From contig NZ_CP045119.1 of NCBI RefSeq assembly GCF_011492945.1, positions 3,534,001-3,598,000 on the forward strand: 64,000 nt of DNA, given 5' to 3'. Each line of letters starts with the position of its first letter. Positions within the stretch are counted from its first letter, which is position 1. The notes under the pieces were generated by a model. The model searched no databases. It saw only the letters and a program-made list of their open reading frames with translations, and was not told the origin of the DNA. Positions 44,816-61,052 of the stretch are shown here, piece by piece. The position numbers and the translations under genes are program-made. The DNA is from Rubrobacter tropicus. Lineage in GTDB: Bacteria; Actinomycetota; Rubrobacteria; Rubrobacterales; Rubrobacteraceae.

Positions 44816-47455
44816 ATGGTTTCTAGGTTTGGCCCTCTGGGCGTCTGGTCCGTGGCGGGTGGGATGCTTTTCGGGTTGCTGCTCGTGGCGCTCGCGCTGC
44901 CGGCGGGGGCGCAGACGGGACCGGTAGACGACGGGCCCTCGCTCTCCGTAAGCGATCGCCTGGAGGACCGCCGGTACGTGGCGACGGGGTCGAGGGGGTA
45001 CGTCGTCGGGACCGAAGACGGGCGGTTCCCGGCCATGGGGTTCCATACCAGGGGCGAGATGGGCGGGGTGTGGACGCCCCCGATCAAGCTGCTCGACGGC
45101 CTCTGGTTCGGTATAGGAGAAGACTGGATCGGGCCCGCCGAGAAGTTCACGGGCGGCTACGGCCACGTCGAGATGGAGCTGCCGGGCCCGGACGGCCTCT
45201 CGATACGGAGGACGGACTTCGTCCCCGACGGCAAACGCTCCGTCCTCGTCGGCCTCACCTTCGAGTCGGAGGGCGCGCGGACCGTCGACCTCAAGATGGA
45301 CGCCCACTCCGAGCTGATGGGCGCCTACCCCTGGGGCGAGACCACCCCGAACCAGAAGACGTTCAACCTCCAAGACGAGGTTTCCGTCGAGGGCGGCAGG
45401 CTCGTCTTCCGCGAGCAAGGGACGCCGCCGGCCGAGAACGCGCTTCCGCACGACTGGGCGGCCGTCGTCGGCTCCAGCCTGACGCCGACGGGGAGCGAGA
45501 CCGGCGAGGACTACAGGGGACCGCAGGACCCGGCCGAGGTCTGCCCCGCCCCGCCCGCCCCGAACGCGGAGCCACCGGGCGGCTGCGACGACACGGAGTT
45601 TGGCAAGGGCAAGGGCGGCCAGCTCCGCTACGAGGTGGGGCTGGCCGCCGGCGAGGCGAGGACCGTCTGGTTCGCCGTCTCGGGCGCGGACTACGACGGT
45701 GAAAACCCGGCCGACGCGAAGGCGGCGGCGCTCTCGGCAAACGAGGCAGCGCTGGCCGACCCGGACGCCCTGCTCGAGGAGAAGGTCCTCTCGCGGACCG
45801 GGCTGGCCGAGAACACCAGGCTCTCGTTGCCCGACGACCGCAGGCTGCAGCGGAGCATCGAGTGGAGCAAGCAGAACCTCGCGGACTCCGTGCAGACGGC
45901 GAGGGACCTGGAGATCCGGGAGACCAACGCGGGCGCAAACTACCCGGCGCCCGAGGGCGACCTCGAGAAGATGCGCTTCCTCGGGGCGGGCTTCCCGGAC
46001 TACCAGTGGCTCTTCGGGACGGACGGGGAGTACACCGCCTTCGCGAGCGTCGGCGTCGGGCAGTTCGGGCCGATCAAAGACCACCTCAGGGCCCTGCGGG
46101 ACGTAAGCCTCATAGACAACGGCCGCTCCGGCAAGGTCGTCCACGAGGTAGTCACGGACGGGACGGTCTTCTTCGGGTCGAACGCTGACGACGGCAACAC
46201 CGACGAGACCTCCAAGTTCCCGAGCGCGGTCGCCCTGCTGTGGCGCTGGACCGGCGACGACGCCTTCCGCGACGAGATGTACGGTTTCACGAAGCGGAAT
46301 ATGGAGTACGTGTTCCGCGAACTCGACGAGGACGGGGACCTCTGGCCGGAGGGCCTCGGCAACGTCGAGCGGGCCGGGATGGGCGAGGAGAAGCTCGACA
46401 ACGCCGTCTACACCATCCGGGGCCTCTATGATCTCGCGGACATGGCGAGGAGCAAGGGCGACGGGGAGACCGTGAGGTGGGCGACCTCGCGCGCAAGAGT
46501 CATGGAGCGGCGCTTCGAGGACGCCTGGTGGTTCGGGCGGGAGGGTGCTACGCAGTACGCCGACTCGCTCGACCGTTCGCCCGTCGGCGGTGCCAACGAG
46601 AAGATCTTCCAGCGGCACTGGATCGGGGGCACCCCCATGGACGTGGAGTTCCCGTCGGGCAGAGGGGAGGTCCGCCCCGGCCTCGCCTCGCGCGCCCACG
46701 GCAACGCGGCCCTCGACGAGCGCGAGCTGGACTGCTACACGGGCCGCTTCGGCATGTTCCACACGGGCACTGGCCCAACCAGCGCGGAGGGCGGCAACAG
46801 GGGCGCGAGTTGCGACAGGCACCTCTCTGAGGTGCAGAGCGAGCGAAACATCTTCACGCTCAACACCGCCATCATGGCCGTCGGAGAGGGCAACTACGGC
46901 AGGCTCGGCGAGGACCAGCAGCAACACTACGCCGACGCCAACGCGGATCTGCAGCTCATCCCGGACGAGCAGCCGGGCGCCATGCCAGAGATAGCGCCCT
47001 CCCCGGACTACGCGGCGGGCGGCTCGAAAGACAGACCCTTCAACGAGCGGGCGATGGTGCTGCAGGCGTGGGGTGCCTACGGCACGATCTGGCCCGTCGT
47101 CCACCAGTGGCTCGGCGTCCGTCCGGACATGGGCCGCGGCGAACTCGCCGTCGTCCCCCAGGTCCCACCCGGCTCCCCCGCCATCTCGGGTAGGAACATA
47201 AGGCTCGGAGGCGGCTCCGTCCGCGTCGAGGCAGAGGCCGAAGGCAGGACCTACCGCACCACCGTCCGCCCGAACGTGGCGCTGGACGGGCTGACCCTCG
47301 GGCATACCGTCCCGCGCTCGGAGTCGGTCCGCTCCGTCACCCTGAACGGTGAGAGGGTCCGCTACAAGGTAAACACCACAAACCGCGGCAAGGAGGTGCT
47401 AGCCGGGGCCCCGACGCGCGGGGAGCAGGAACTGATAATCAAGACGTCCAGGTAG
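44816..47455 (+). CDS. Secreted six-hairpin glycosidase-like protein
   Basis: An 879-residue secreted protein: a signal peptide to about residue 32 (GMLFGLLLVALALPAGAQTG), an N-terminal beta-sandwich domain (about 40-300; MGGVWTPPIKLLDGLWFGIG), and an (alpha/alpha)6-barrel domain (about 340-740, with FPDYQWLFGTDGEYTAFASV, DGDLWPEGLGNVERAGM and a C-terminal FNERAMVLQAWGAYGTIWPV) like glycogen-debranching or GH15/GH78-type enzymes. Acid residues suited to catalysis are present, but the sugar substrate is unknown. It heads the secreted cluster with a canonical, non-Pho-type promoter, so its control differs from the phosphatase genes behind it. Confidence 0.8.
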   Translation: MVSRFGPLGVWSVAGGMLFGLLLVALALPAGAQTGPVDDGPSLSVSDRLEDRRYVATGSRGYVVGTEDGRFPAMGFHTRGEMGGVWTPPIKLLDGLWFGIGEDWIGPAEKFTGGYGHVEMELPGPDGLSIRRTDFVPDGKRSVLVGLTFESEGARTVDLKMDAHSELMGAYPWGETTPNQKTFNLQDEVSVEGGRLVFREQGTPPAENALPHDWAAVVGSSLTPTGSETGEDYRGPQDPAEVCPAPPAPNAEPPGGCDDTEFGKGKGGQLRYEVGLAAGEARTVWFAVSGADYDGENPADAKAAALSANEAALADPDALLEEKVLSRTGLAENTRLSLPDDRRLQRSIEWSKQNLADSVQTARDLEIRETNAGANYPAPEGDLEKMRFLGAGFPDYQWLFGTDGEYTAFASVGVGQFGPIKDHLRALRDVSLIDNGRSGKVVHEVVTDGTVFFGSNADDGNTDETSKFPSAVALLWRWTGDDAFRDEMYGFTKRNMEYVFRELDEDGDLWPEGLGNVERAGMGEEKLDNAVYTIRGLYDLADMARSKGDGETVRWATSRARVMERRFEDAWWFGREGATQYADSLDRSPVGGANEKIFQRHWIGGTPMDVEFPSGRGEVRPGLASRAHGNAALDERELDCYTGRFGMFHTGTGPTSAEGGNRGASCDRHLSEVQSERNIFTLNTAIMAVGEGNYGRLGEDQQQHYADANADLQLIPDEQPGAMPEIAPSPDYAAGGSKDRPFNERAMVLQAWGAYGTIWPVVHQWLGVRPDMGRGELAVVPQVPPGSPAISGRNIRLGGGSVRVEAEAEGRTYRTTVRPNVALDGLTLGHTVPRSESVRSVTLNGERVRYKVNTTNRGKEVLAGAPTRGEQELIIKTSR

Positions 47456-47500: not shown

Positions 47501-47556
47501 ATTTAACGCAGAGTTTTCTGGCCTTTAACCTATGCATGAAGATGCCTCCCTATACT
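47501..47556 (+). promoter_or_regulatory. Pho-box-like promoter 1 (PhoX-like gene)
   Basis: Three 11-bp-phased units: TTTAACG (from 47502), GTTTTCT (from 47513) and TTTAACC (from 47524), then TATACT as -10 at 47551, 28 bases after the start of the third unit. No -35 box is needed in this layout, as in PhoB/PhoP-activated promoters. Confidence 0.75.
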
Positions 47557-47617
47557 TCTGCCGGTCGTTAGGTAAGCGGGGCCCCAGCCTCGCTGCGGAG
47601 AAACGGAGGGAAGCGTC

Positions 47618-49120
47618 TTGGACGTAAAGGGCAAACCGGGTCGGGTCAGCCGCAAGCAATTTCTCGGGGCAGGAGGGGCGGGCGCGGCGGCGTTCGTGCT
47701 GGGCGCTTTGGGCACGCAGAGCGGGCCTCTGGGCGCCCTGGGCGCTCGCGGCGCGCTGGGGCAGGAGGCACCGCGCACGGAGGGCTACGGGCCGCTCGGG
47801 CCGTCCAACGGGCCGGATCTCCTGCTGCCCCAGGGCTTCCGGTATAGGGTGATCTCCCGCCAGGGCGAGCCTATGAGCGACGGCAACCCGACGCCTGGCA
47901 TCTTCGACGGCATGGGGGCGTTCCCCGGGCCGCGGGGGACCACCATCCTGATCCGCAACCACGAGAACCGGCGGCGTCCCGGGGAGATCCCGGTCGTCGT
48001 GCCGGCGGACAAGCGCTACGACGCCGACCCGACCTACACGGCCGGGGACACCAAGGTCGTGCTCGACCGCAGGGGCAACGTGACGAGGAGCTTCGCCATC
48101 CTCGGCGGCACCGACACCAACTGCGCCGGCGGCGAGACGCCTTACGGGACTTGGATCACCTGCGAGGAGGTGGTCAACCGCTCGGCCGCGGGCGTCAAGC
48201 ACGGCTACATCTTCGAGATCGACGCCTACGCCGAAGGTCCCGTAGACGCCGTGCCGATCCGGTCCGCCGGCCGCATGTCCCACGAGGCGGTCGCCTACCT
48301 CGACGGCATCCTCTACGAGACCGAGGACCGAAGCATCTCCCGCGATGGCGGCGCCTGCTTCTACCGCTACATCCCCGAGGGCGACGACGGTGACGACCGC
48401 GGCCGTGGCAGGGACGACGATGATCGCGAGAGGCTCCCCGACGGGGGCAGGTTGCAGGCGCTCAAGCTGAGGGACGAGGACCGGGCGAACATGGACACGG
48501 GCAGGCCCGTCGGGCAGGCGTACCCCGTCGAGTGGGTGGACGTGCCGGTGCCGGACCACGACGACGACACCGACCAGCTCAGGAGTGGGCCGGACAACCT
48601 GCTTCCGACGCGCTTTCAGGCGCAGAACCGGGGCGCGGCCCTCTTCGACCGCGAGGAAGGCATCTGGGTCGGGGACGGCAAGATCTACTTCGACTGCACC
48701 TTCGGCGGCGCCCAGAACCTCGGCCAGGTCTGGGAGTACGACCCGAACGAGGAGACCATCACCCTCATCTACGAGTCCTCCGACCCGACCGCGCTCCAGA
48801 ACCCGGACAACGTCGTGATCGTGCCGAGGACCGGCGACATCTTCCTGCAGGAGGACGGCCCCGACGAGGACGGCCAGTTCGTCCGCGGTCTTACGGAGGA
48901 CGGCGAGATCTACGACTTCGCCCGCACGGTGACGAATAGCACGGAGTTCTGCGGCGGCTGCTTCTCCCCGGACGGCAACACGTTCTTCCTGAACCAGCAG
49001 GGCGAGCGTGGAGGCCCCGTCAGCGACGGCGGCCAGCCCGTCCCGAACGCCGTCACCTACGCCATCACGGGCCCGTTCGCCAGGAGGAGGCGCGGCGGCA
49101 ACGGTCGCAACGACGACTAG
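47618..49120 (+). CDS. PhoX-type (DUF839) secreted alkaline phosphatase-like protein
   Basis: A 500-residue protein with a Tat-type signal (SRKQFLGAGGAGAAAFVLGA; the pair is R-K, not R-R) and a PhoX/DUF839 beta-propeller: GFRYRVISRQGEPMSDGNPT, ILIRNHENRR, NCAGGETPYGTWITCEEVVN, RMSHEAVAYLDGILYETEDR and ENLG-like NLGQVWEYDP. PhoX enzymes are calcium-iron alkaline phosphatases exported by Tat. A charged acidic stretch at about 251-283 is an insert. TTG start with GGAGGG. A Pho-box-like promoter stands in front, fitting phosphate control. Confidence 0.88.
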   Translation: MDVKGKPGRVSRKQFLGAGGAGAAAFVLGALGTQSGPLGALGARGALGQEAPRTEGYGPLGPSNGPDLLLPQGFRYRVISRQGEPMSDGNPTPGIFDGMGAFPGPRGTTILIRNHENRRRPGEIPVVVPADKRYDADPTYTAGDTKVVLDRRGNVTRSFAILGGTDTNCAGGETPYGTWITCEEVVNRSAAGVKHGYIFEIDAYAEGPVDAVPIRSAGRMSHEAVAYLDGILYETEDRSISRDGGACFYRYIPEGDDGDDRGRGRDDDDRERLPDGGRLQALKLRDEDRANMDTGRPVGQAYPVEWVDVPVPDHDDDTDQLRSGPDNLLPTRFQAQNRGAALFDREEGIWVGDGKIYFDCTFGGAQNLGQVWEYDPNEETITLIYESSDPTALQNPDNVVIVPRTGDIFLQEDGPDEDGQFVRGLTEDGEIYDFARTVTNSTEFCGGCFSPDGNTFFLNQQGERGGPVSDGGQPVPNAVTYAITGPFARRRRGGNGRNDD

Positions 49121-49267
49121 AAGCGCCCGGTCCCGTACGGATCGCGCGGTCGGCGCCCTCTGCGCAGAGGGCGCCGACCTGTTTTGCGTCTTTGTAGTGG
49201 CGCTCCCCGCCGCGCGCCTCTGGGAGCCTTGCCCTGCCAACCGGCCCGCGCCGCCGAAGTTCGGCGC

Positions 49268-49324
49268 GTTTTTACGCAAAGTTTACCCGCGTGTAACCCA
49301 CGCCCTTTCACTTGCCCGTAAGCT
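49268..49324 (+). promoter_or_regulatory. Pho-box-like promoter 2
   Basis: Phased units TTTTACG, GTTTACC and TGTAACC at 11-bp steps, with TAAGCT as probable -10 starting 29 bases after the third unit begins. It lies before the phytase-like gene. Confidence 0.65.
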
Positions 49325-49365
49325 CTACGACGGTTGTCCGGCGGTCATTCGGAGGAGAGATTAGG

Positions 49366-50520
49366 TTGGGTCTCTACAGACGCAAAGTCCTGACGACAGG
49401 GTCCGCGGCAGTAATCGGCACGGCCGCCCTGGCCCTACTCCTGGCAACCTCCGCGGCGCTCTTCGTCTTTCAGGACCAGGCAACCGCCGCCCGTCCGGGC
49501 GCAGAGACTCCAGACTGCGCCGCCGGGGTGGACTTCCTCGGCTTCTCGGACGCCCTGAACAAGCAAGCCTACGAGGGTACCAGCGTCGGTGGGCTCTCCG
49601 CACTGGCGTACACCGGACGCCGGGACATCTACTACAGCCTCGTGGATAACGGCCCGACCACCACCTCCGAAGCCCGCTTCTACACGCTGCAGATCCCGGA
49701 AAAGGATCGACTCGGCAAGCCCGAGATCGTGGACGTCACCACCCTCAAGGACGCCTCCGGCCAGCCCTTCACGGCCTCCGACTTCGACGGCGAGGGCCTG
49801 ACGCTAACCCGCCGCGGCGACCTCCTCGCCTCCTCCGAGACGGAGCCCTCGATCCGGCGCTTCGACCCCGAAGGCAACCTCCTCGAGAAGCTGCCCGTGC
49901 CCCGGAAGTTCATGGTCGCGCCGGAGGGCCAGGCGCAGCGCAACCAGACGTTCGAAAGCCTGGCCCTCGCTCCCAACGGGTGGAGCCTGTTCACGGCGGT
50001 CGAGGGTCCGCTCGCGCCCGACGGCCGGACGGCCGAGGGCGAGAACCGCATTCGCATCCTGCGCTACGAGGACCGCGGACCGGGCGGCTTCGAGCCGGTC
50101 GAGGAGTTCTTCTACCTGACCGAGCCGGGCCAGGGCGTCGTCGAGATCGTGGCGCTCTCCGAAGACGAGCTGCTGGTGCTTGAGCGGGGCTTCCAGTCCG
50201 GCGTCGGCAACACGGTGCGGGTCTTCAGGGTCTCTCTCGACGGCGCCGAAGACGTCTCCGGCGAGCCGAGCCTCGCGGCGCCGGGACTGGAGCCGGTCGA
50301 GAAGGAGTTGCTGGTGGACCTCGCCGACTGCCCATCGGGCGGCGCGACGACGCCGGGGACGCAGCCGAACCCGCTGCTGGACAACTACGAGGGCCTGACG
50401 CCCGGGCCACGTCTGCCGGGCGGAAGACGGGCGGTGCTCTTGCAGAGCGACGACAACTTCAGCGCCGGCCAGGTTACGCGGGTGGTCGCGCTGGGCGTGG
50501 AGAACGGGCGTCTGCGGTGA
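49366..50520 (+). CDS. Esterase-like activity of phytase family protein (1)
   Basis: A 384-residue exported protein: signal/anchor segment GSAAVIGTAALALLLATSAA (residues 11-30), then the phytase-like esterase domain with YEGTSVGGLSALAYTGRRDI, DFDGEGLTLTRRGDLLASSE, IRRFDPEGNLLEKL and NQTFESLALAPNGWSLFTAV. It ends DDNFSAGQVTRVVAL. The family (PF13449) is named for similarity to phytase-like esterases; the real substrate is unproven. TTG chosen because the Pho-box promoter's expected start site lies upstream of it and downstream of any earlier start. Probably co-transcribed with the next genes. Confidence 0.85.
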   Translation: MGLYRRKVLTTGSAAVIGTAALALLLATSAALFVFQDQATAARPGAETPDCAAGVDFLGFSDALNKQAYEGTSVGGLSALAYTGRRDIYYSLVDNGPTTTSEARFYTLQIPEKDRLGKPEIVDVTTLKDASGQPFTASDFDGEGLTLTRRGDLLASSETEPSIRRFDPEGNLLEKLPVPRKFMVAPEGQAQRNQTFESLALAPNGWSLFTAVEGPLAPDGRTAEGENRIRILRYEDRGPGGFEPVEEFFYLTEPGQGVVEIVALSEDELLVLERGFQSGVGNTVRVFRVSLDGAEDVSGEPSLAAPGLEPVEKELLVDLADCPSGGATTPGTQPNPLLDNYEGLTPGPRLPGGRRAVLLQSDDNFSAGQVTRVVALGVENGRLR

Positions 50521-50610
50521 GTCACGGGGCGCCGAGGACGGAGGGGCCACGAGGTCCCTGTCCCGAAACTAACAGAGAGTACCTGTAAAGCGACGCGAGA
50601 GGATGGAAAC

Positions 50611-51627
50611 ATGCGAAGGGAACACACCACGGCCGCGCGGGTTGGCGGGGCTTCTATCATGGTCGGCTTGCTCGCGGCAGGGCTCGCTGCGCTGATGGCG
50701 CTGATGACGCTCGTCGCCCCTGCGGAGGCGGCCAAGAAACCGGCGGAGACCGCGCCGGTGTTGAACGTCGGGCACAGGGGGGCCTCCGGGTACGCGCCGG
50801 AGCACACCATCCCGGCGTACGACCTGGCGCTAAAAATGGGCGCGGACTACATAGAGCAGGACCTCCAGTTGACCAAGGACGGCGTGCTCGTGGCGCTCCA
50901 CGACGAGACGCTCGACAGGACGGCGCGGCCGACGGCCGAATCCGCGCCGGGCGACTGCACGGGCCTCGTGCGGGAGAAGACGCTCGCCCAGATCAAGACG
51001 TGCGACGTCGGCAGCTGGTTCAACGAAACGTATCCCCAGTACGCCAAGCCGGAGTACGTGGGGCTCAGGATCCCGACGCTCGAAGAGGTCTTCCAGAGGT
51101 ACCGCAAGAGCACGAACTACTACATCGAGACCAAGAGCCCCGAGTCCGCGCCCGGTATGGAGGAAGAGCTGCTGCGGCTGATGGATGAGTACGGGCTGAC
51201 GAAGCCCGCGGCGGACAGGTGGCAGGTATTGATCCAGTCCTTCTCGCCAGCGAGTCTCCAGAAGGTCCACGCCCTCGACCCGTCCCTCCCCCTCATCCAG
51301 CTCTTCTCCGGCGCCGAGACGAGCCAGACCATCCAGGCCCGCCTCGACGCGACCGCGGCCTACGCCGTCGGGATAGGCCCATCGAAGGGCGACGTGGACA
51401 AACCCCTCGTGGACGCCGCCCACGCCCGCTGCCTGGACGTCCACCCCTACACGGTCAACGAGACGCCCGAGATGGAGAAGCTTATCTCTATTGGCGTGGA
51501 CGGCATGTTCACGAACTTTCCCGACCGCCTCGAAGCCGTGCTCGACAAGGAGGCCGCGAACGGCAAGTCAGGCGCCCGCCTCGCCGCCGACGCCTCCGAA
51601 TCCTGCCGCGCCGGGATCGGGGTGTAA
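50611..51627 (+). CDS. Glycerophosphodiester phosphodiesterase, secreted (GlpQ-like)
   Basis: A 338-residue secreted GDPD: a signal peptide (GLLAAGLAALMALMTLVAPA), then LNVGHRGASGYAPEHTIPAY with HRG and the metal-binding Glu, YIEQDLQLTKDGVLVALHDE with E-x-D and catalytic His, and late motifs DVHPYTVNETPEM and GVDGMFTNFPDRL. It releases glycerol 3-phosphate from phospholipid head groups, a classical Pho regulon activity. No clear Pho-box is seen in the 90-base gap upstream, so it may be read through from the phytase-like gene. ATG follows GAGAGG. Confidence 0.92.
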   Translation: MRREHTTAARVGGASIMVGLLAAGLAALMALMTLVAPAEAAKKPAETAPVLNVGHRGASGYAPEHTIPAYDLALKMGADYIEQDLQLTKDGVLVALHDETLDRTARPTAESAPGDCTGLVREKTLAQIKTCDVGSWFNETYPQYAKPEYVGLRIPTLEEVFQRYRKSTNYYIETKSPESAPGMEEELLRLMDEYGLTKPAADRWQVLIQSFSPASLQKVHALDPSLPLIQLFSGAETSQTIQARLDATAAYAVGIGPSKGDVDKPLVDAAHARCLDVHPYTVNETPEMEKLISIGVDGMFTNFPDRLEAVLDKEAANGKSGARLAADASESCRAGIGV

Positions 51628-51633
51628 GGACGG

Positions 51634-52839
51634 ATGAGGACGAAGGTACTACTCCTGGCCGCGCTCACGGCCGTCCTTCTGGCCCAGCCGGTCCTGGCCG
51701 GGACGAAGCAAAAAGAGCCGGAGACGACGCTGGAGGGACGGGCGATCTACCCGGCCGAACTCCGCGGCCAGGGGAGCCAGCCGGCCCCCAACCCCTTCCC
51801 CGACCAGCCGGTCGGAGGATACTCCGCCCTGCTCGACGCGAAGGGCGCCGACACCTACCTGGCGATGCCGGACAACGGCTACGGCTCGAAGGCAAACTCC
51901 CCCGACTTCATCCTGCGCGTGGACCGGGTGCGGGTGGATTACGAGACGGCGAGAGGCGGCAGCGGCGAGGTCGAGGTTCTCGATTACGTCCGGCTGCGCG
52001 ACCCGGACGAGAAGATTCCATTCCCCATCGTGGACGAGAACGGCTCCGGGCAGCGTCTGCTGACCGGCTCGGACTTCGACCCCGAATCCATGAGGGTCGC
52101 GCGCGACGGAACCTGGTGGTTCGGCGACGAGTTCGGCCCGTTCCTGCTCCACACGGACAGCACGGGCAGGGTCCTCGAAGCGCCAATACCGCTCCCCGGC
52201 GTCAAGGCCCCGGAGGACCCGACACGTCCCGGACAGCCCGTGAACTTGCGCTCCTCTTCCGGCTTCGAGGGAGTGGCGATCTCCAAAGACCGCCGCTACC
52301 TGTACCCGAGCCTGGAGCGTTCCCTGAACGGCGAGGACATCCGTAAGCACCACATCTACGAGTTCGATCTGAGGGCCGGTGAGTACACGGACGAGCGGTG
52401 GACCTACCGCGCGGACCTTCCCATCCCGCCCGAGCAGGAGCACGTCATCGGGGACATGACGGCGCTAGACGCGAACCGCCTGCTCGTAATCGAGCGAGAT
52501 TTCCTGCAGGGAGAGCGGGCGCAGTTCGAGAAGGTCTTCGTCGTAGACCTGAGAGAGACCGACGCCGAGGGCTTCCTCGTCAAGCGCGAGGTCGTAGACC
52601 TTCTGGACGTGAGGGACCCGGGGCTCATCTCGCTGCCGGGGCGCCCGGGCGACTACGGCCTCGGCGACCCGTTCGAGTTCCCCTACGTCACCACCGAGAG
52701 CGTCCTGCCCCTCGGGGGCCAGCGCCTCGCCATCGTCAACGACAACAACTTCGGCTCCGTCGGCGGGCGCAACCCGAGCCTCCCCGACTACACGGACTTC
52801 ATAGTCGTGCGCGCCGAAGCCCTGCGCGGCGGGGTCTGA
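51634..52839 (+). CDS. Esterase-like activity of phytase family protein (2)
   Basis: A 401-residue secreted paralogue of the first phytase-like protein: signal peptide (VLLLAALTAVLLAQPVLAGT), YSALLDAKGADTYLAMPDNG, SDFDPESMRVARDGTWWFGD, SGFEGVAISKDRRYLYPSLE, DANRLLVIERDFLQG and a tail with VNDNNFGSVGGRNP. It begins 6 bases after the GDPD stop (AAGGA in the gap), so the three genes form one unit. Like its paralogue, it could attack phosphate esters, but that is inferred from the family and context. Confidence 0.85.
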   Translation: MRTKVLLLAALTAVLLAQPVLAGTKQKEPETTLEGRAIYPAELRGQGSQPAPNPFPDQPVGGYSALLDAKGADTYLAMPDNGYGSKANSPDFILRVDRVRVDYETARGGSGEVEVLDYVRLRDPDEKIPFPIVDENGSGQRLLTGSDFDPESMRVARDGTWWFGDEFGPFLLHTDSTGRVLEAPIPLPGVKAPEDPTRPGQPVNLRSSSGFEGVAISKDRRYLYPSLERSLNGEDIRKHHIYEFDLRAGEYTDERWTYRADLPIPPEQEHVIGDMTALDANRLLVIERDFLQGERAQFEKVFVVDLRETDAEGFLVKREVVDLLDVRDPGLISLPGRPGDYGLGDPFEFPYVTTESVLPLGGQRLAIVNDNNFGSVGGRNPSLPDYTDFIVVRAEALRGGV

Positions 52840-52871
52840 ACCGCCCGCACGACGGCGTTTTCGGATTGCAT

Positions 52872-52907
52872 GGAGGAGGCCCGCCCGGCACCGGGCGGGC
52901 CTCCTCC
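52872..52907 (+). terminator. 17-bp perfect hairpin closing the phytase/GDPD operon
   Basis: GGAGGAGGCCCGCCCGG and CCGGGCGGGCCTCCTCC are perfectly complementary around CA. It is 32 bases after the stop and directly before the next Pho-box promoter. Confidence 0.8.
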
Positions 52908-52929
52908 ATCTCCGTGTAGAACCCCCTGT

Positions 52930-52986
52930 TGTTTAACGAGGGTTTTACCCGTGTGAAACAACGGGGGCGAACTTTGCTGGTACTTT
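52930..52986 (+). promoter_or_regulatory. Pho-box-like promoter 3 (nuclease gene)
   Basis: Units TTTAACG, TTTTACC and GTGAAAC at 11-bp steps and TACTTT as probable -10, 29 bases from the start of the third unit. Confidence 0.65.
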
Positions 52987-53047
52987 ATGCGGGGCCGGGG
53001 AACCGACCGGCTTCTTGAAAGTTTCCAACGAAGGTCGGAGGTTCGGG

Positions 53048-55297
53048 TTGTACGGTCTGCGTGTTCCGGCGGTCGTGTCAGGTGTCTTGCTCTCGTCGCT
53101 CGCGTTGCTCGTCTCGCTCGCGCCGGCGCTGGCGTCGCCCAACGGCGTCGTGATCTCCGAGCTTCGCGCCCGCGGGCCGGCAGGCGGCAACGACGAGTTC
53201 GTTGAGATCTTCAACACCTCTGCGGGCGACGTGGACGTATCCGGCTACAGGCTCCAGGGCTGCGCCGCCGCTTCGGGCAACCCCTCGGACCGGACCACGG
53301 TCCCGGCCGGCACGGTGCTCGACCCGGGCGACCATTACCTGTTCACCAACTCGGGCAGCGGCGGCTACTCCGGCGCCGTGCCGGGCGACCGGACCTACTC
53401 GACGGGCTTCACGGACTTCCAGGCGAACAACGCGAGCGGCGCCCGCCTCGTCGACGCCTCGGGCGCCGTCGTCGACGGCGTTGGTTCCCCGAACAGCCCG
53501 TGCCGCGAGGGGGCAGGCATCACGACGCCGGCCACGACCGGCGACAACTCCTTCGAGCGCAGGGACGGCGGCAGGCAGGACACCGAAGACAACGCGGCGG
53601 ACTTCGTGGGACCGAAGGCGGGGGGGCCGCAGAACCTTTCGGGCGCCGGCGCTCCGGGGCCGGAGATCACGAAGATCCACGACGTCCAGGGCCCGGGAGC
53701 CGAATCGCCCATCACCGGCCGGACGGTCACCGTCGAGGGAGTGGTTACGGGGATAGACGACGAGATCGGGGCCAGCTTCGGCTCGGGCAACTCTATCCGC
53801 CGCTTCCCGGAGGACGCCGGTATCTTCGTCCAGGAGGAACCGGCCGACGCCGACCAAAACTCGGAGACTTCGGAGGGCGTCTTCGTCGGCTTCGTCCGGG
53901 ACCGCGCGGCCTACACCTTGGGCGACGTGGTGCGCGTGAACGGCCGTGTGAACGAGAAGTTCGGGCACACGATCATCTCCGAAACCATAAACCGGGAACC
54001 GGAGAAGGTCGGCACCACCCCCGTCCCCGACCCGGTCGAGATCGACGCCGCGCGGGCGGAGGGCCAGGACCCGCAGGCCCGCCCGTACTACGAGAGCCTC
54101 GAAGGGATGCGCGTTCGCCTGGCGGTCGGCACCGCCAACTCGGGCGGCACCAACAAGTTCGGCGAGCTGTTCGTGACGCCTGGCACGGAGCAGGATCGCG
54201 TCTTCCGAACGGAGACCGAGCCGGCCCTCATCGCCACCGACGCCGACGCGGGCGCGGGCGACCCGGACAACCCCTTCCGCGACCCCGACGGCTCCACGAC
54301 CGAGGTCGAGGCCGACCTCTTCGACACGGTGTCCGGCGCCACCGGCCCCTTGCTCTTCGCCTTCGAGAACTACCGCATCATGGTCCAGGAAGACGGGCTG
54401 CCGACCGTAACCGACACCGGTGTCACCTACCCCTACGAAGAGCTCTCCCCCTCCGGCCCGAAGCAGTTCCGCGTGGCCTCTTTCAACGTCGAGAACTACT
54501 TCCCCGTCGGCGGCGCGCTCGACGGCGGCAACGTTAGCCAAGAGGAGTTCGACGAGAAGACCGCCCGCCTCACGGACGCCACCAACGGCAGGCTGAAGCG
54601 CCCCGAGGTCGTCGCCGTGCAGGAGGTCTACGACCTCGCCACGCTCCGGGCGCTAGCCGCCTCGCTCGGCGGCTACACGGCCTACCTCGAAGAAGGCAAC
54701 GACTCCCGCGGCATAGACGTAGGGTTCCTCGTCAAAGACGGGGTGAAGGTCGAGGGCGTCACGCAGTACGGCAAGACCGCGACCGCGCCGGACGGCCTCG
54801 ACTGCTCCGACGTGCCGGGCGGGCTCTTCGACCGGCCGCCGCTCGCCATAGAGGTCCAGGCGAAGGGCTTCGGCGGGTTCACCGTCTTCTCGAACCACTT
54901 CGCCTCCAAGGCCGCCCCCGACGCGTGCCGCGAGGCCCAGGCCGCCTTCGTGCGCGACCGCGTCGCGGAGCTAGAAGACGCCGGGAGGCGGTCCATAGTC
55001 GCCGGCGACCTGAACGCCTTCGAGGACGAGTCGGCGCTACGGACGCTCGAAGACGGAGAGACGTCCCTGGACAACCTGTGGGACGCGGCGCCCGAGCAGG
55101 AGCGCTACAGCTTCGCCTTCCAGGGCAAGCTCCAGACCCTCGACCACGTCCTCGTAACCAGCGGCTTGAAGAACAGGATCGGCGACTTCCGCTACGCCCA
55201 CTTCGACAACGACTACTTCGAGCGCGACGACCAGGCGGAGCCCGACGGCCACCACGTCTCCGACCACGACCCGCCCGTCCTCACCCTCTCGAAGTAA
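53048..55297 (+). CDS. Secreted nuclease: lamin-tail domain plus endonuclease/exonuclease/phosphatase domain
   Basis: A 749-residue exported protein. Signal peptide (VSGVLLSSLALLVSLAPALA), lamin-tail-like domain (VVISELRARGPAGGNDEFVE IFN region, about 35-160), an OB/DUF-like middle part (about 210-440), and a C-terminal EEP nuclease domain with FRVASFNVENYF, VVAVQEVYDL, NHFASKAAP, VAGDLNAFED, LDHVLVTSGL and HHVSDHDPPV. This layout is that of extracellular NucH/ExeM nucleases, which free phosphate from environmental DNA. TTG at 53048 has GGAGG at 6 bases. Own Pho-box-like promoter and a strong hairpin behind. Confidence 0.9.
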   Translation: MYGLRVPAVVSGVLLSSLALLVSLAPALASPNGVVISELRARGPAGGNDEFVEIFNTSAGDVDVSGYRLQGCAAASGNPSDRTTVPAGTVLDPGDHYLFTNSGSGGYSGAVPGDRTYSTGFTDFQANNASGARLVDASGAVVDGVGSPNSPCREGAGITTPATTGDNSFERRDGGRQDTEDNAADFVGPKAGGPQNLSGAGAPGPEITKIHDVQGPGAESPITGRTVTVEGVVTGIDDEIGASFGSGNSIRRFPEDAGIFVQEEPADADQNSETSEGVFVGFVRDRAAYTLGDVVRVNGRVNEKFGHTIISETINREPEKVGTTPVPDPVEIDAARAEGQDPQARPYYESLEGMRVRLAVGTANSGGTNKFGELFVTPGTEQDRVFRTETEPALIATDADAGAGDPDNPFRDPDGSTTEVEADLFDTVSGATGPLLFAFENYRIMVQEDGLPTVTDTGVTYPYEELSPSGPKQFRVASFNVENYFPVGGALDGGNVSQEEFDEKTARLTDATNGRLKRPEVVAVQEVYDLATLRALAASLGGYTAYLEEGNDSRGIDVGFLVKDGVKVEGVTQYGKTATAPDGLDCSDVPGGLFDRPPLAIEVQAKGFGGFTVFSNHFASKAAPDACREAQAAFVRDRVAELEDAGRRSIVAGDLNAFEDESALRTLEDGETSLDNLWDAAPEQERYSFAFQGKLQTLDHVLVTSGLKNRIGDFRYAHFDNDYFERDDQAEPDGHHVSDHDPPVLTLSK

Positions 55298-55302
55298 CGA
55301 GG

Positions 55303-55335
55303 GCGGTGCAGAGGCTCTATGAGCCTCTGCACCGC
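55303..55335 (+). terminator. 15-bp perfect hairpin after the nuclease gene
   Basis: GCGGTGCAGAGGCTC and GAGCCTCTGCACCGC around TAT, 5 bases after the stop codon. Confidence 0.75.
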
Positions 55336-55445
55336 GCGGTCAGCCATCAGCCCGCTCCGGCTTCGCCTCCGCTCTCAGCGGTCGGCTTTCTTGTTCTTGG
55401 CTGATGGCTGAATGCTGATAGCCGAAAGCTGATAGCCGAAGGTCC
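55336..55445. repeat. TCAGC/GCTGA modular intergenic repeat (family A), copy 6
   Basis: GCGGTCAGCCATCAGCCC, GGC-TTC-GCC mini-hairpin, CGCTCTCAGCGGTCGGC, spacer TTTCTTGTTCTT, GGCTGATGGCTGAATGCTGA and TAGCCGAAAGCTGATAGCCG. Complementary halves flank the spacer. Confidence 0.7.
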
Positions 55446-55484
55446 GACTTCTCGGAGGACCGCTTCGAGTTTTCCGGGCCGGTT

Positions 55485-55540
55485 CGTTTACGGAGAATTC
55501 ATCCATATGAAACACTCTCCGCGGCGCGGGCTGCTATTCT
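55485..55540 (+). promoter_or_regulatory. Pho-box-like promoter 4 (5'-nucleotidase)
   Basis: Weaker units GTTTACG, ATTCATC and TGAAACA at 11-bp steps; TATTCT at 55535 is exactly 28 bases from the start of the third unit. Confidence 0.6.
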
Positions 55541-55598
55541 GTTCGGGGCCGGGTATCTCCCGCCGCGTCACGAAGACCGGAAGAATCGGAGGGGTGGA

Positions 55599-57299
55599 AT
55601 GGTAGTTACGTTGCGTGCGGCGCTGTTGCCGATAACGCTCGCGCTGGCCCTCATGCTTGCGCTTTTGGCGATACTGGCCTCGGGCGCGGAGTCAAAGCCG
55701 AAACCGACCAAGCCGGTGCCCGAGGACAGGACCAGCAACATCCAGCTCCTCGGCGTAAACGACTTCCACGGCCAGTTGGAGCCGACGACCCGCAGGGACG
55801 TTCCGGGCAGGACGCTCGGCGGCGCGGCCTACCTCGACGCCTACTTTGACCGCTACGAGGCCCGGAACCCCGAGCGGACCATCAGGGTCCACGCGGGCGA
55901 CATGGTCGGCGCTTCGCCCCTGATCTCCTCCTACTTCCACGACGAACCTTCCGTCTACGCGATGAACGAGATGGAGATGGACGTCGGCACCCTGGGCAAC
56001 CACGAGTTCGACGAGGGAGGCGAGGAGATGCTGCGCCTCATAAACGGCGGCCAGCGCTCCGACGGCAACCAGTTCAAGGACGGCCCCGACGGCGAGCCCA
56101 TCAACACCTCCGACCCGGACTTCGACGGCGCAGACTTCCCCTACGTAGCCGCCAACACCGAGTACAAGGACTCGGGCGAAACGGTCCTGCCGCCGTACAA
56201 GATAGTCAAGAAGGACGGCATAAACGTAGGCTTCATCGGGGTGACGACGCTGGAGACGCCGAACATCGTGACCCCGGACGCGGTGGCGCCCTTCGACTAC
56301 CTGGACATCTCGGAGACCGTCAACCGCTACGTCGCCGAGCTCAAGAGGAAGAAGGTGGAGACGGTCGTCGTGCTCGCCCACGCGGGCGGCGCGCAGACCA
56401 CGGCGACGGAGGCCGTCGGCGAGATCGTCTCCGAGACCCAGCAGATGAGCGACGAGGTCGACGTCGTGGTCTCGGGGCACTCCCACTCGCAGCTCAACAA
56501 CCGCGTCGGCAACAAGCTCATCGTGCAGGCCTTCTCGCTCGGCACCGCCTTCGACGCCGTCAACATGAAGATCGACCGCAGGACCAAGGACGTGGTCTCC
56601 TCCTCGGCCGAGATCGTCAACACCTTCAACGACGCCATCGCCCCGGACCCGGCGACGGCCGAGCTCGTCGCGGGCTACAAGGATCGGATCGACCCGATCG
56701 CCAACCGTGTCGTAGGTACCGCGGCCGAGAACGTGGTCCGCACGAACAACGCCGCGGGCGAGAGCCCGCTCGGCCAGCTCATCGCGGACGCGCAGAGGGA
56801 CTTCGCGGGGACCCAATTGGCGTTCATGAACCCGGGCGGCATCAGGGCCGACATCGCGGCCGGGGAGGTAACGTACGCCGAGCTCTTCGCCGTGCAGCCC
56901 TTCGACAACCAGGTGGTGCGGCTGGAGATGACCGGGGATCAGGTCTACCGCGTCCTCGAGCAGCAGTTCCAGACGGACAACAACGGCAACCCGAGGACCC
57001 GCATCCTCCAGGTAAGCGGCCTCGAGTTCTCCTACAACTCGACGAACCCGGCGGGGCAGAGGATCACATCCGTCACCCTCCCGGGCGGGACCCCGCTCGA
57101 CCGCGCCGCCACCTACACCGTCGCGGCCAACAGCTTTATCGCGACGGGCGGCGACGGCTTCACGGTCTTCAAGGAGGGCCAGAACCCCAACACCCTCGGC
57201 AGCGACCTCGACGCCCTCGAAGGGTACATCGACGGCCTGCCCTCGCCCTTTCCCGCCCCGGACCCGAACGCAGACCCGAGGATAACGAAGCAAGGGTAG
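55599..57299 (+). CDS. Secreted 5'-nucleotidase / bifunctional metallophosphatase (UshA-like)
   Basis: A 566-residue exported enzyme: signal peptide (LPITLALALMLALLAILASG), N-terminal metallophosphatase domain with LLGVNDFHGQLEP, HAGDMVGASP, LGNHEFDEGG, VVLAHAGG and VSGHSHSQL, and C-terminal 5'-nucleotidase domain (FMNPGGIRADI, FNYPGG-like FSYNSTNPAGQRI, ATGGDGFTVFKEG). It should hydrolyse nucleotides or UDP-sugars outside the cell. ATG has GGAGGGG. With the upstream nuclease it forms a logical pathway from DNA to nucleoside plus phosphate. Confidence 0.93.
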   Translation: MVVTLRAALLPITLALALMLALLAILASGAESKPKPTKPVPEDRTSNIQLLGVNDFHGQLEPTTRRDVPGRTLGGAAYLDAYFDRYEARNPERTIRVHAGDMVGASPLISSYFHDEPSVYAMNEMEMDVGTLGNHEFDEGGEEMLRLINGGQRSDGNQFKDGPDGEPINTSDPDFDGADFPYVAANTEYKDSGETVLPPYKIVKKDGINVGFIGVTTLETPNIVTPDAVAPFDYLDISETVNRYVAELKRKKVETVVVLAHAGGAQTTATEAVGEIVSETQQMSDEVDVVVSGHSHSQLNNRVGNKLIVQAFSLGTAFDAVNMKIDRRTKDVVSSSAEIVNTFNDAIAPDPATAELVAGYKDRIDPIANRVVGTAAENVVRTNNAAGESPLGQLIADAQRDFAGTQLAFMNPGGIRADIAAGEVTYAELFAVQPFDNQVVRLEMTGDQVYRVLEQQFQTDNNGNPRTRILQVSGLEFSYNSTNPAGQRITSVTLPGGTPLDRAATYTVAANSFIATGGDGFTVFKEGQNPNTLGSDLDALEGYIDGLPSPFPAPDPNADPRITKQG

Positions 57300-57332
57300 G
57301 TTTCAGGCAACAGGCTTCAGGTATCAGCTTTT
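57300..57332. repeat. CCTGA-type intergenic repeat (family B)
   Basis: TTTCAGGCAACAGGCTTCAG then GTATCAGC: complement of the CCTGAAGCCTG words, directly after the 5'-nucleotidase stop. Confidence 0.55.
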
Positions 57333-57334
57333 CG

Positions 57335-57361
57335 GGCGCGTCTTTCGGGACGCGCCTTTTT
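57335..57361 (+). terminator. Rho-independent terminator after the 5'-nucleotidase gene
   Basis: GGCGCGTC, loop TTTCGG, GACGCGCC, then TTTTT. A textbook hairpin with T-run. Confidence 0.85.
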
Positions 57362-57379
57362 CGTGCCCGCGGCGGGGAT

Positions 57380-57435
57380 ATTTAACCGAGACTTTTCTGC
57401 GCGTTAACCCCGGCGCGTCCCGCCGCTCCTACACT
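57380..57435 (+). promoter_or_regulatory. Pho-box-like promoter 5 (EEP hydrolase)
   Basis: Units TTTAACC, CTTTTCT and GTTAACC at 11-bp steps, and TACACT at 57430, 28 bases from the start of the third unit. One of the best copies. Confidence 0.78.
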
Positions 57436-57482
57436 TGTTACCGGCGTGAGAGACACGGCCAAGCCTACGAAGGGGGACTTTG

Positions 57483-58334
57483 GTGCAGGGTAGGGGAAGG
57501 TTGGGGGGGCACGTCGTCGTGGCGGTTCTGGCGGCGGCGATGGCCGTTGTCGCGGTCATGGTCGTGGCGACCGAGGGCGGGGCCCGGGGGTCGGAGCGGC
57601 GGGACGTGAGGGTGATGAGCTACAACATTCATCACGGAGAGGGGGCGGATGGCAGGCTCGACCTGGACAGGATAGCCGGTGTGATCCGGTCGGAGAAGGC
57701 GGAGGTCGTCGGCCTTCAGGAGGTCGACAGGTTCTGGCGCAGGAGCGACTTCGTTGACCAGGTAGATTACCTGGCCGAGGAACTCGACATGTACGCCGCC
57801 TACGGCGCGAACCTCGACCTCCCCCCGGATGACCCGTCACAGCCGCGCCGCCGGTACGGGACTGCGATCCTGAGCAAGTACCCCATCATCGAGAGCGGGA
57901 ATACCTTTCTGCCCAGGCTCGGCACGAGCGAGCAGCGCGGCCTTCTGGAGGCCCTCATAAAGGTCAAGGGAGCCCCGGTCCGCTTCTACAACACCCACCT
58001 GCAGCACAACAGCAGCGAGGAGCGGGCGCTCCAGGTCCGCGCCATCATGGAGCACACGAAAGACGTCGAAGGGCCGCAAATCCTCGTCGGCGACCTGAAC
58101 GCCCTCCCCGGGGCGCCGGAGCTCGCGCCCCTCTACGGGCGCTACGACGACGCCTGGACCCTCGGCGGCGAAGGCCCCGGCTACACCATAGGCGCCGAGA
58201 ACCCCAACCGCCGCATCGACTACGTCTTCGTCACACCAGACGTGGCGGTGAGAAGCGCGTCCGTACCCCGGACCCTCGCCTCGGACCACCTGCCGGTCGT
58301 CGCGGAGCTCTCCGTGCCGAGGAAAGCCAGATAG
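57483..58334 (+). CDS. Secreted endonuclease/exonuclease/phosphatase family hydrolase
   Basis: A 283-residue exported EEP-fold enzyme: signal peptide (VVAVLAAAMAVVAVMVVATE), then VRVMSYNIHHGEGADG, VVGLQEVDRFWRR, YNTHLQHNSSEERALQ, LVGDLNALPGAPEL, RRIDYVFVTPD and SDHLPVVAEL, all catalytic motifs in order. It is similar in size to sphingomyelinase/phosphoinositide phosphatase-like and metal-dependent nuclease members; the substrate is open. GTG has GGGGGAC upstream; TTG three bases before it is an alternative. It has its own Pho-box-like promoter. Confidence 0.88.
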   Translation: MQGRGRLGGHVVVAVLAAAMAVVAVMVVATEGGARGSERRDVRVMSYNIHHGEGADGRLDLDRIAGVIRSEKAEVVGLQEVDRFWRRSDFVDQVDYLAEELDMYAAYGANLDLPPDDPSQPRRRYGTAILSKYPIIESGNTFLPRLGTSEQRGLLEALIKVKGAPVRFYNTHLQHNSSEERALQVRAIMEHTKDVEGPQILVGDLNALPGAPELAPLYGRYDDAWTLGGEGPGYTIGAENPNRRIDYVFVTPDVAVRSASVPRTLASDHLPVVAELSVPRKAR

Positions 58335-58380
58335 AACGGCGGACTCGCCCGCAGCAGCCTTCGCGACCGGCCGCGGGCAC

Positions 58381-58436
58381 ATTTAACCCAGATTTTCGCG
58401 GGGATTAACCTACGAATCTCGGCCCTCCCTTATAGT
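58381..58436 (+). promoter_or_regulatory. Pho-box-like promoter 6 (metallophosphatase)
   Basis: Units TTTAACC, TTTTCGC and ATTAACC at 11-bp steps; TATAGT at 58431 is 28 bases from the start of the third unit. Confidence 0.75.
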
Positions 58437-58487
58437 TGCTGGCGTGCAGGCCGGGTGTCGCCGCGTGACGACTGGAAGGGGAGAGCC

Positions 58488-59462
58488 TTGAAGAGGAACC
58501 GCCTGTTGTTGGTCTTGATGGTGGCGGTTCTTATTGCCTCCTACTCGGCCGCGGCCGTTGCGAAGCCTCAGGGCTCAGGCAAACCTTTCGACGTCGCCCT
58601 GATCGGGGACATCCCCTACAACGCCCTGCAGGAAGTGCAGACAGCGAGGCTCTTCGAGGAGCTCGACCGCGAAAAGCTCGCCTTTATCTCCCACGACGGC
58701 GACATCAAGAGCGGCTCCTCGGCCTGCACGGACGACGTGTACCAGAAGGAACTCCGCCGCTTCGAGGACTCGAAGAACCCGCTCGTCTACACGCCGGGCG
58801 ACAACGAGTGGACGGACTGCCACCGGCCTCCGAACCCGACGCCTGAAGAGGCCGACCCGCTGAACCGCCTCGACTACCTGCGCGGCGTCTTCTTCCCCGA
58901 CGACGACTCGCTGGGCCGCAGGGAGATAGAACTCGAGCGCCAGAACCAGGACTACCCGGAGAACGCCCGCTGGCGGCGGGGCGGCGTGACCTTCGCCACC
59001 CTGCACGTCGTCGGCTCCAACAACAACCGCCCGACCACCCTCCCGGACGGGTCGGTTATCGGGAACGAGGAGGAGTACCAGGCGCGCAACGCGGCCAACC
59101 TGGAGTGGCTCGCGGAGACTTTCGACGAGGCGGAGGAGGACGGCAGCCCGGCGGTGATGCTCGTGATCCAGGCCAACCCTTTCGAAGAAGACACCGCCCG
59201 GCCATCCGGCTTCTCGGACTTCAAGGCCGCCCTCGAAGAAGAGGTCGTCGCCTTCGGCAAGCCGGTCGTCCTGGTCCTCGGCGACAGTCACACGTTCAGG
59301 ATAGACAAGCCGGTCATCTCGGAGGAGCGCCCGCTCAACTTCACCCGCGTCGAGACCTTTGGCAACCCGGACGTTCACTGGGTAAGGGCCACGGTGGACC
59401 CGCGTGACGAGGAGGTCTTCTCCTTCGAACCGGAAATCATAGAAGAGAACGTCGCGCCGTAG
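58488..59462 (+). CDS. Secreted metallophosphoesterase
   Basis: A 324-residue exported protein: signal peptide (LLLVLMVAVLIASYSAAAVA), then a calcineurin-like fold with DVALIGDIPYNALQEVQTAR, ISHDGDIKSGSS, TPGDNEWTDC in place of the usual GNHE, HVVGSNNN and LGDSHTFRID in place of GHxH. The unusual GDNEW and GDSHT variants are shared by a known subgroup of secreted metallophosphatases. The substrate is unknown. TTG at 58488 is chosen (GGGGAG upstream; the -10 box is too near the earlier start at 58455). The next gene follows after 21 bases, so they are co-transcribed. Confidence 0.85.
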   Translation: MKRNRLLLVLMVAVLIASYSAAAVAKPQGSGKPFDVALIGDIPYNALQEVQTARLFEELDREKLAFISHDGDIKSGSSACTDDVYQKELRRFEDSKNPLVYTPGDNEWTDCHRPPNPTPEEADPLNRLDYLRGVFFPDDDSLGRREIELERQNQDYPENARWRRGGVTFATLHVVGSNNNRPTTLPDGSVIGNEEEYQARNAANLEWLAETFDEAEEDGSPAVMLVIQANPFEEDTARPSGFSDFKAALEEEVVAFGKPVVLVLGDSHTFRIDKPVISEERPLNFTRVETFGNPDVHWVRATVDPRDEEVFSFEPEIIEENVAP

Positions 59463-59483: not shown

Positions 59484-61052
59484 ATGAAGCTTCAGAAAGG
59501 CCTGCTCTGCGTCCTGGCCGCCCTGATCCTGGGCACTCTAGGCCTGACTTCGGCCCTCGCAGCGGCCCCGAACGGCCCCGCCTACCGCGACGAGCTCCCG
59601 CTCGGCAACCCTGGCCTGAAGGAGACCCGGACGACCGAACAGGTGGCGCCCGGCGTCACCTACACGCGCGTCGTACGGGGGGAAGAGTCGAGGAAGGATT
59701 TCTATACCGTGGACGTGGCTTTCGAGGCCGGTCGAGCCGCGGCCGGGGACGTAGCGGACCAACTGCGCGCCGACGGCTACAAGGCCCGCGTCGAGAGGGT
59801 CTCGGACCGCGCCCCCGACGACCCGGCCGGCGGGCCTTCGGGCTACCTGGTCCGCGCCGGTAGGTTCGCCACCCAGGCCGGGGCCGACGCTTTCGGGGCC
59901 AGGCTGACGGCGGACGGCTACGCCGGAACGCGCACCGTCTACACCGGTGAGGACGGGGGGAAGACAACGGGGCCCTGGGTCGTGCACGTCCTGAAGGTCG
60001 ACCCCGGCCTCTACGACGGCACGCTCGCGCCCGAGTTGGCAACGGAGGTCGTGCCGGAGCGCGAGCTCCTTACGGGCATCTCGGCGCGCACGGGGGCGCT
60101 TGCGGCCGTAAACGGCGGGTACTTCGTGATCGGCCCGAACGACGGCACGCCGAGGGACCTCGCCGGCATCTCCGTCCTGGGGGGCGGCGCCGTCAGCGAG
60201 GCCGTGGACGGCCGCACGAGCCTCGTCCTTCCCGAAGGCGACGGCGCCGGTTCGGACGTCGCGGCCCTCTCCGACAGCTATCTCGCCGCGTCCTCGGACG
60301 GGGCTTCGCTGCCCGTGGACGGTCTCAACCGCAAGCCCGGCCTGATCCGGGGCTGCGGCGGCGAGGGCGGCGACAACCCTACGGAAGAGCCCAAGCACGA
60401 CTTCACCTGCACGGATTCGTCCGAGCTGATCCTGTTCACCCCCCTCTTCGGCGCGAACACGGAGCCGGGCGAAGGGGCCGAGGCCGTCCTCGACCCCTCG
60501 GGCCGCGTTACGGAGCTGCGCGAAGGTCGGGGCGGCCCCATCCCGCCCGGGGGCTCAGTCCTCTCCGGGACCGGCGCAGGCGCCGGCTGGCTCCGCGCCC
60601 ACGCCGCACCAGGCGCGACCGTCAGCGTGAAGACCACCATCTCCGGCGAAGGCGCGCGCCTGGACGAAGGGACCGGCGTCGTCAACGGGGGCCCGAGGCT
60701 CCTGAGAGGCGGCGAGGAGGACATAACCGCGTTCGCCGAAGGCTTCGTCTACCCCGAGAACCCCGAGTTCTACTACCGCTTCGGCGAGCGCCGCAACCCG
60801 CGCACGCTCGCGGGGACGACGCCCGGCGGAGACCTGCTGCTCGTCGCCGTGGACGGCAGGCGTCCGGGCTACAGCGTGGGCGCCAGCTTCGAGGAAGGCG
60901 CGGGCATCATGGGCGCTCTAGGCTCCGACGAGGCCGTCAACCTCGACGGCGGCGGCTCGACGGGCATGACCGTGCGCCAGGGGCTGGTAACCCGCCCGTC
61001 CGACACGACCGGCGAGCGCCCGATAGGCGACGCGGTGGTGGTGCTTCCGTAG
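59484..61052 (+). CDS. Phosphodiester glycosidase (NAGPA) family protein with SPOR-like domain
   Basis: A 522-residue exported protein: signal peptide (LCVLAALILGTLGLTSALAA), a SPOR-like repeat domain (about 65-150: FYTVDVAFEAGRAAAGDVAD, YLVRAGRFATQAGADAFGAR), and a NAGPA-type phosphodiester glycosidase domain (about 155-522) with LAAVNGGYF, RKPGLIRGCG, VNGGPRLLRGG, EFYYRFGERRNPRTLAGTTP and the C-terminal EAVNLDGGGSTGMTV. NAGPA enzymes cleave GlcNAc-1-phosphodiester bonds; here wall teichoic-like or sugar-phosphodiesters are possible substrates. Second gene of the Pho-box 6 operon. GGGAGGAAG precedes ATG. Confidence 0.88.
   Translation: MKLQKGLLCVLAALILGTLGLTSALAAAPNGPAYRDELPLGNPGLKETRTTEQVAPGVTYTRVVRGEESRKDFYTVDVAFEAGRAAAGDVADQLRADGYKARVERVSDRAPDDPAGGPSGYLVRAGRFATQAGADAFGARLTADGYAGTRTVYTGEDGGKTTGPWVVHVLKVDPGLYDGTLAPELATEVVPERELLTGISARTGALAAVNGGYFVIGPNDGTPRDLAGISVLGGGAVSEAVDGRTSLVLPEGDGAGSDVAALSDSYLAASSDGASLPVDGLNRKPGLIRGCGGEGGDNPTEEPKHDFTCTDSSELILFTPLFGANTEPGEGAEAVLDPSGRVTELREGRGGPIPPGGSVLSGTGAGAGWLRAHAAPGATVSVKTTISGEGARLDEGTGVVNGGPRLLRGGEEDITAFAEGFVYPENPEFYYRFGERRNPRTLAGTTPGGDLLLVAVDGRRPGYSVGASFEEGAGIMGALGSDEAVNLDGGGSTGMTVRQGLVTRPSDTTGERPIGDAVVVLP

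Follow-up and report, generated by a model that had tools for sequence, protein, structure and literature searches.

The window, by which we mean the whole 64-kb stretch of Rubrobacter tropicus DNA that was analysed (positions 3534001-3598000 of contig C1), contains a gene cluster in which nine genes, assigned by Pfam domain matches, are arranged in six units that each lie downstream of a repeated sequence box (Table 1). An earlier note on this DNA had described the cluster as an organophosphate-scavenging set, and the domain matches to PhoX, phytase-like, glycerophosphodiester phosphodiesterase (GDPD), nuclease, 5'-nucleotidase and phosphodiester glycosidase families bear this out. Most of the nine proteins have a signal-like hydrophobic N-terminus. 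The cluster continues beyond the end of the window with a second 5'-nucleotidase gene and phoD. The first phytase-like gene must start at about 49366 (a TTG after GGAGGAGA) and not at the mechanical ORF start, 49312, because the start has to be downstream of its -10 element. Homologues of the metallophosphoesterase gene are preceded by a box in five relatives, and its true start is probably downstream of 58455. Immediately upstream of the cluster is an ORF of 879 aa (44816-47455) that has no Pfam match. Elsewhere in the window (22483-26505 and 27088-29937) are genes for two large TPR-repeat proteins of a signalling or defence type, the first of these domain types being trypsin-like in one protein and NB-ARC in the other.

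Table 1. Predicted Pho boxes and the genes of the six units downstream of them (positions in the window).
Feature	Position	Strand	Details
Pho box 1	47502..47556	+	TTTAACG/GTTTTCT/TTTAACC, -10 TATACT
PhoX alkaline phosphatase gene	47618..49120	+	PF05787 2.8e-69; Tat-like N-terminus
Pho box 2	49270..49324	+	TTTTACG/GTTTACC/TGTAACC, -10 TAAGCT
Phytase-like esterase gene, first in three-gene unit	49366..50520	+	PF13449 7.7e-78
Glycerophosphodiester phosphodiesterase (GDPD) gene	50611..51627	+	PF03009 2.2e-55
Second phytase-like esterase gene	51634..52839	+	PF13449 5e-55
Pho box 3	52932..52986	+	TTTAACG/TTTTACC/TGAAACA, -10 TACTTT
Lamin-tail-domain and endonuclease/exonuclease/phosphatase gene, extracellular nuclease type	53015..55297	+	PF00932, PF03372
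Pho box 4	55486..55540	+	GTTTACG/ATTCATC/TGAAACA, -10 TATTCT
5'-nucleotidase (UshA type) gene	55599..57299	+	PF02872 1.4e-51, PF00149
Pho box 5	57381..57435	+	TTTAACC/CTTTTCT/GTTAACC, -10 TACACT
Endonuclease/exonuclease/phosphatase family gene	57480..58334	+	PF03372 2.5e-31
Pho box 6	58382..58436	+	TTTAACC/TTTTCGC/ATTAACC, -10 TATAGT
Calcineurin-like metallophosphoesterase gene	58455..59462	+	PF00149 3.6e-4, at its cut-off
NAGPA phosphodiester glycosidase gene, second in box 6 unit	59484..61052	+	PF09992 4.6e-27

All six boxes in the window consist of head-to-tail units of about 7 bases that start at 0, 11 and 22. Unit 1 reads TTTAAC(C), unit 2 reads TTT[TA]C and unit 3 reads T[GT][TA]AAC, with a conserved AGA in the linker joining units 1 and 2. 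A -10 hexamer of the form TANNNT occurs at +49 in every box, which places it 27 nt from the start of unit 3, and the logo of the relatives' sites also has the -10 at +49. The earlier note had put this distance at 28 in four boxes and 29 in two; this mixture arose because the unit borders were shifted, and it disappears when the units are set in one register. Its remaining description of the promoters holds, including three units at 11-bp steps before six transcription units and a T-rich middle unit. It had also proposed a layout in which an activator replaces the -35 element. This fits the sites, as no -35-like hexamer was found in the columns preceding the -10 in either the window sites or the logo of the relatives' sites, unit 3 fills that slot and the spacing to the -10 is rigid.

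We fitted a 55-base pattern to the six sites and searched the 64-kb window with two mismatches allowed. The pattern matched the six boxes and no other position, even at two mismatches, and gave no matches in 100 dinucleotide-preserving shuffles. Because this pattern was fitted to the sites, a leave-one-out analysis is the fairer test. Every held-out box was still among the six best of 127,890 positions; the boxes scored 23.7 to 47.4 bits, and no other position exceeded 11.9 bits. These results confirm that the six boxes are real and are present at all six places.

We scanned the genome (4.58 Mb in two contigs) with covariance models that used sequence only. The model built from the six sites found two new loci genome-wide, one upstream of a second phoX gene (phoX2) and one upstream of phoD, and did not by itself recover a box at pstS. 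Inspection of the promoter and a local matrix revealed the pstS box (19.7 bits compared with 17.2 bits for the best non-site in 141 kb); it has the usual -10 spacing and lies before the head of pstSCAB-phoU, one of the places where the earlier note had expected a match. The local matrix also added the second 5'-nucleotidase gene and a gene for an RTX protein that is divergent from phoX2. A model of eleven sites then returned 11 sites, all of them before phosphate genes or this RTX gene, and the next matches in the genome had E values of only 0.27 and 0.42. With the permuted control empty as well, the model does not match random sites as often as phosphate genes; equal matching would, according to the note, have counted against its proposal. 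In 364 kb that we sampled, twelve box-like sites scored at least 26.5 box bits and the best non-site 18.9; the sole exception above 18.9, with 21.8, came from the phoD site read in an overlapping register. Across the genome, the box occurs before pstS and before alkaline phosphatase genes (phoX twice and phoD).

The RTX gene (L031:7312-7824; C1:262311-262823) encodes a small protein of 170 aa with a hydrophobic N-terminal segment and calcium-binding RTX repeats. It has its own Pho box with the -10 TAGAAT, and boxed homologues occur in several relatives. Since PhoD-type enzymes use calcium (PMC4223295), the RTX protein may bind calcium as a partner of the secreted phosphatases. Four good units in 11-bp phase also occur before a PAS-LuxR gene (L031:11607-11662; C1:266606). 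This site was left out of the training set for the matrix because it has no -10 in register, and it may be a Pho site that represses or that has a different placement.

The box model had matches in all 18 Rubrobacteraceae relatives that we scanned, whereas 12 genomes of other families in the phylum gave no match. A column-permuted model matched none of the same 31 genomes. Of 67 sites in the relatives, which are not all independent because they are partly orthologous promoters, 55 precede phosphate-scavenging or co-regulated genes. These encode PhoX, PhoD, PstS, nucleotidase, nuclease, metallophosphoesterase, GDPD, phytase-like and PhnD proteins as well as a UgpA-like permease, a sulfatase/phosphodiesterase, a TIM-barrel protein and the RTX protein. 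Several of the 55 have no orthologue among the training sites, and pstS is downstream of eight of the relatives' sites. The other 12 precede genes for which we found no tie to phosphate. Sites before xylose-isomerase-like TIM-barrel genes (PF01261) were present in three relatives (L094, L093, L095), two of them with a good -10, and these genes are a possible new member of the Pho regulon.

The logo of the 67 sites revealed an extra TTTAA unit at -11 to -7. These columns were not used by the matrix, so the unit confirms the 11-bp phase. This fourth, upstream unit is present in about half of the sites, and the turn that follows unit 3 is empty. The array therefore comprises three to four units, and its end lies about 19-20 bp upstream of the -10.

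It could be argued that the repeats are leftovers of one promoter that was duplicated along with paralogous hydrolase genes and that they have no regulatory meaning. The six boxes do lie inside one 11-kb cluster and some of its genes are paralogous (two phytase-like and two endonuclease/exonuclease/phosphatase genes). We consider this extremely improbable given that the cluster genes cover several unrelated folds, most linkers and the 20-nt spacer are dissimilar between boxes, the box recurs at other loci, before pstS, phoD and phoX2, as well as in further genera, and the permuted model had no matches.

Another reading is that the boxes are sites for a GlnR-type nitrogen regulator, which has two half-sites one turn apart. 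Among 150 genomes surveyed across the phylum, the only matches outside the Rubrobacteraceae were three promoters of the glutamine synthetase gene, glnA, all in one family (f8; L165, L166, L167). These read TTAAC-N6-GAAAC, which is GlnR-like and illustrates the closeness of GlnR and Pho half-sites, and TGAAAC is frequent as unit 3. Against this, matches in the R. tropicus genome and its family precede phosphatase, nucleotidase and pst genes, we found no nitrogen gene there, and there are three or four units here as opposed to the two of GlnR. A GlnR-type origin is thus very improbable.

Instead, the six boxes are very probably Pho boxes, the predicted operators of a PhoB/PhoP/RegX3-type response regulator that acts as a phosphate-scarcity switch. 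The earlier reading of a Pho regulon cluster gains support from the genome-wide restriction of the box to phosphate genes and its conservation in the Rubrobacteraceae. We infer from sequence that the regulator binds these boxes and that they are under phosphate control. When phosphate is scarce, the regulator would turn on phosphate scavenging. Its monomers would line up head to tail along the three or four TTTAAC-type units, each occupying one 11-bp turn, and the bound array would cover about -72 to -33 if the -10 element is taken to be at -12. With the last unit over the -35 slot, the bound activator would recruit RNA polymerase to the -10 element.

The arrangement resembles Pho boxes of other bacteria. 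The PhoP box of Bacillus subtilis has TTAACA-type repeats and, like the Rubrobacter box, contains TT-A-C-type units at 11-bp steps, often four of them. In Synechocystis, the SphR/PhoB box contains at least three CTTAACCT units with 3-bp linkers (PMC1906773), and binding is weakened or lost when any one of the three TTAA cores is mutated (PMC11126600). The Rubrobacter box shares with this cyanobacterial box at least three tandem units, an 11-bp period, the TTAA core, an almost identical unit (TTTAACC-N4) and a location ahead of pst genes and of genes for secreted phosphatases or nucleases. It differs in that unit 2 is TTT[TA]C without TTAA, AGA is present in the first linker, a fourth unit occurs in about half of the sites and the organisms belong to another phylum. 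The PhoP box of Streptomyces coelicolor, also a high-GC actinomycete, has direct repeat units of 11 nt with GTTCACC as the best motif (PMC4415409). Units there are likewise head to tail, lie before pst, glycerophosphodiesterase and phosphatase genes and are read by the same class of regulator, whereas the Rubrobacter unit is TTTAACC. The earlier note was right that the consensus departs from GTTCACC; the unit is closer to the cyanobacterial one, and the box is nearly three CTTAACCT units. As in Escherichia coli, there are 11-bp units, no -35 element and a fixed spacing to the -10 (PMC1906773, PMC4415409). However, in E. coli the end of the box is 10 bp away from the -10 (PMC1906773), whereas about 19-20 bp lie between the last Rubrobacter unit and the -10 and the downstream turn is empty, suggesting that the Rubrobacter array lies one turn further upstream.

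No published Rubrobacter Pho box was found in the literature that we searched, and it is well supported that this is a known kind of switch in a previously unmapped version. The results provide a Pho box matrix tested by sequence and a predicted Pho regulon for the Rubrobacteraceae, a dry-soil family, and they mark a set of enzymes whose phosphate sources are DNA, nucleotides, glycerophosphodiesters and other organic esters. A cyanobacteria-like operator within the Actinomycetota is also material for studying how the box evolved.

The analysis also names a likely regulator. The genome encodes fifteen OmpR/PhoB-type regulators, one of which is of the PhoB/PhoP type and is accompanied by a PhoR-type kinase. 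NCBIfam models were run against nine of the fifteen; the best model for the regulator at C1:548239-548958 was PhoB, with a score below the cut-off, and since none of the nine exceeded the PhoB cut-off, these scores alone do not single out a PhoB. Its closest solved structure in a PDB comparison was RegX3 (172 bits). The recognition helix is SRTIDVHIRRIR, compared here with that of E. coli PhoB, which we take to be DRTVDVHIRRLR; it is the only one of the aligned regulators of this genome to read RT-DVHIRR as PhoB does. The deep order of the response-regulator tree does not settle which protein is the PhoB orthologue. Because neither the NCBIfam scores nor the tree are decisive, the choice rests more on gene neighbourhood in other families, in two of which the nearest homologues of this regulator adjoin pst genes. 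In one (L171), the homologue is beside pstSCAB-phoU, and the best box in 18.8 kb faces pstS with an identical -10 spacing. In the other (L175), it is beside pstS, pstC and a kinase gene, and pstS carries Streptomyces-like GTTCACG/GTTCACA repeats.

Next to the regulator gene is a kinase gene on the minus strand (C1:547459-548229; L047:6457-7233) that encodes a HisKA-HATPase core only, 257 aa long. Its best match was PnpS followed by PhoR, below the NCBIfam equivalog cut-offs. Open frames for this kinase are about 250-340 aa in most family members (a few are up to 527 aa) compared with 378-630 aa in other actinobacterial families. On this evidence, the PhoB/RegX3-type protein at C1:548239-548958, with its adjacent kinase, is the probable regulator of the boxes.

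The boxes could be true Pho boxes that are read by another regulator of the same type, such as the WalR/RegX3-like protein at C1:3383422, which has a HAMP-PAS kinase. WalR-type proteins also bind 11-bp-phased repeats, this protein is nearer to RegX3 in the PDB comparison (208 compared with 172 bits) and the tree leaves room for it. Yet its best NCBIfam model is YycF/WalR and that of its kinase is WalK, its recognition helix has RH for RR so that one of the two paired arginines of PhoB is changed, boxes are absent within 7 kb of it and the pst-adjoining homologues in other families are those of C1:548239-548958. We therefore regard control by C1:3383422 as unlikely and retain C1:548239-548958 as the candidate.

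If so, the Rubrobacteraceae switch might be unusual in joining an array of three to four units, one turn further upstream than in E. coli, to a PhoB that is paired with a bare soluble PhoR core that lacks the membrane or sensor part usually present. We put this forward tentatively, as a possibility that is somewhat doubtful. With such a core, phosphate status would have to be conveyed by some means besides a membrane sensor domain.

The earlier note had also expected matches at the phoR/phoP genes. No canonical in-phase box was found before the regulator gene or at the PhoB-like/PhoR-like gene pair as a whole. Pho autoregulation is common but not universal, so a missing box at the regulator is not strictly defining; control of sphS/sphR by SphR, for example, is unlikely in most cyanobacteria (PMC1906773). 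In part of the family (L118, L137-L144), the regulator promoter has a conserved GTTAAA-N5-GTTAAA pair, 11 bp apart, that ends upstream of TATACT and is shifted by 5 bp from the phase of the activating arrangement.
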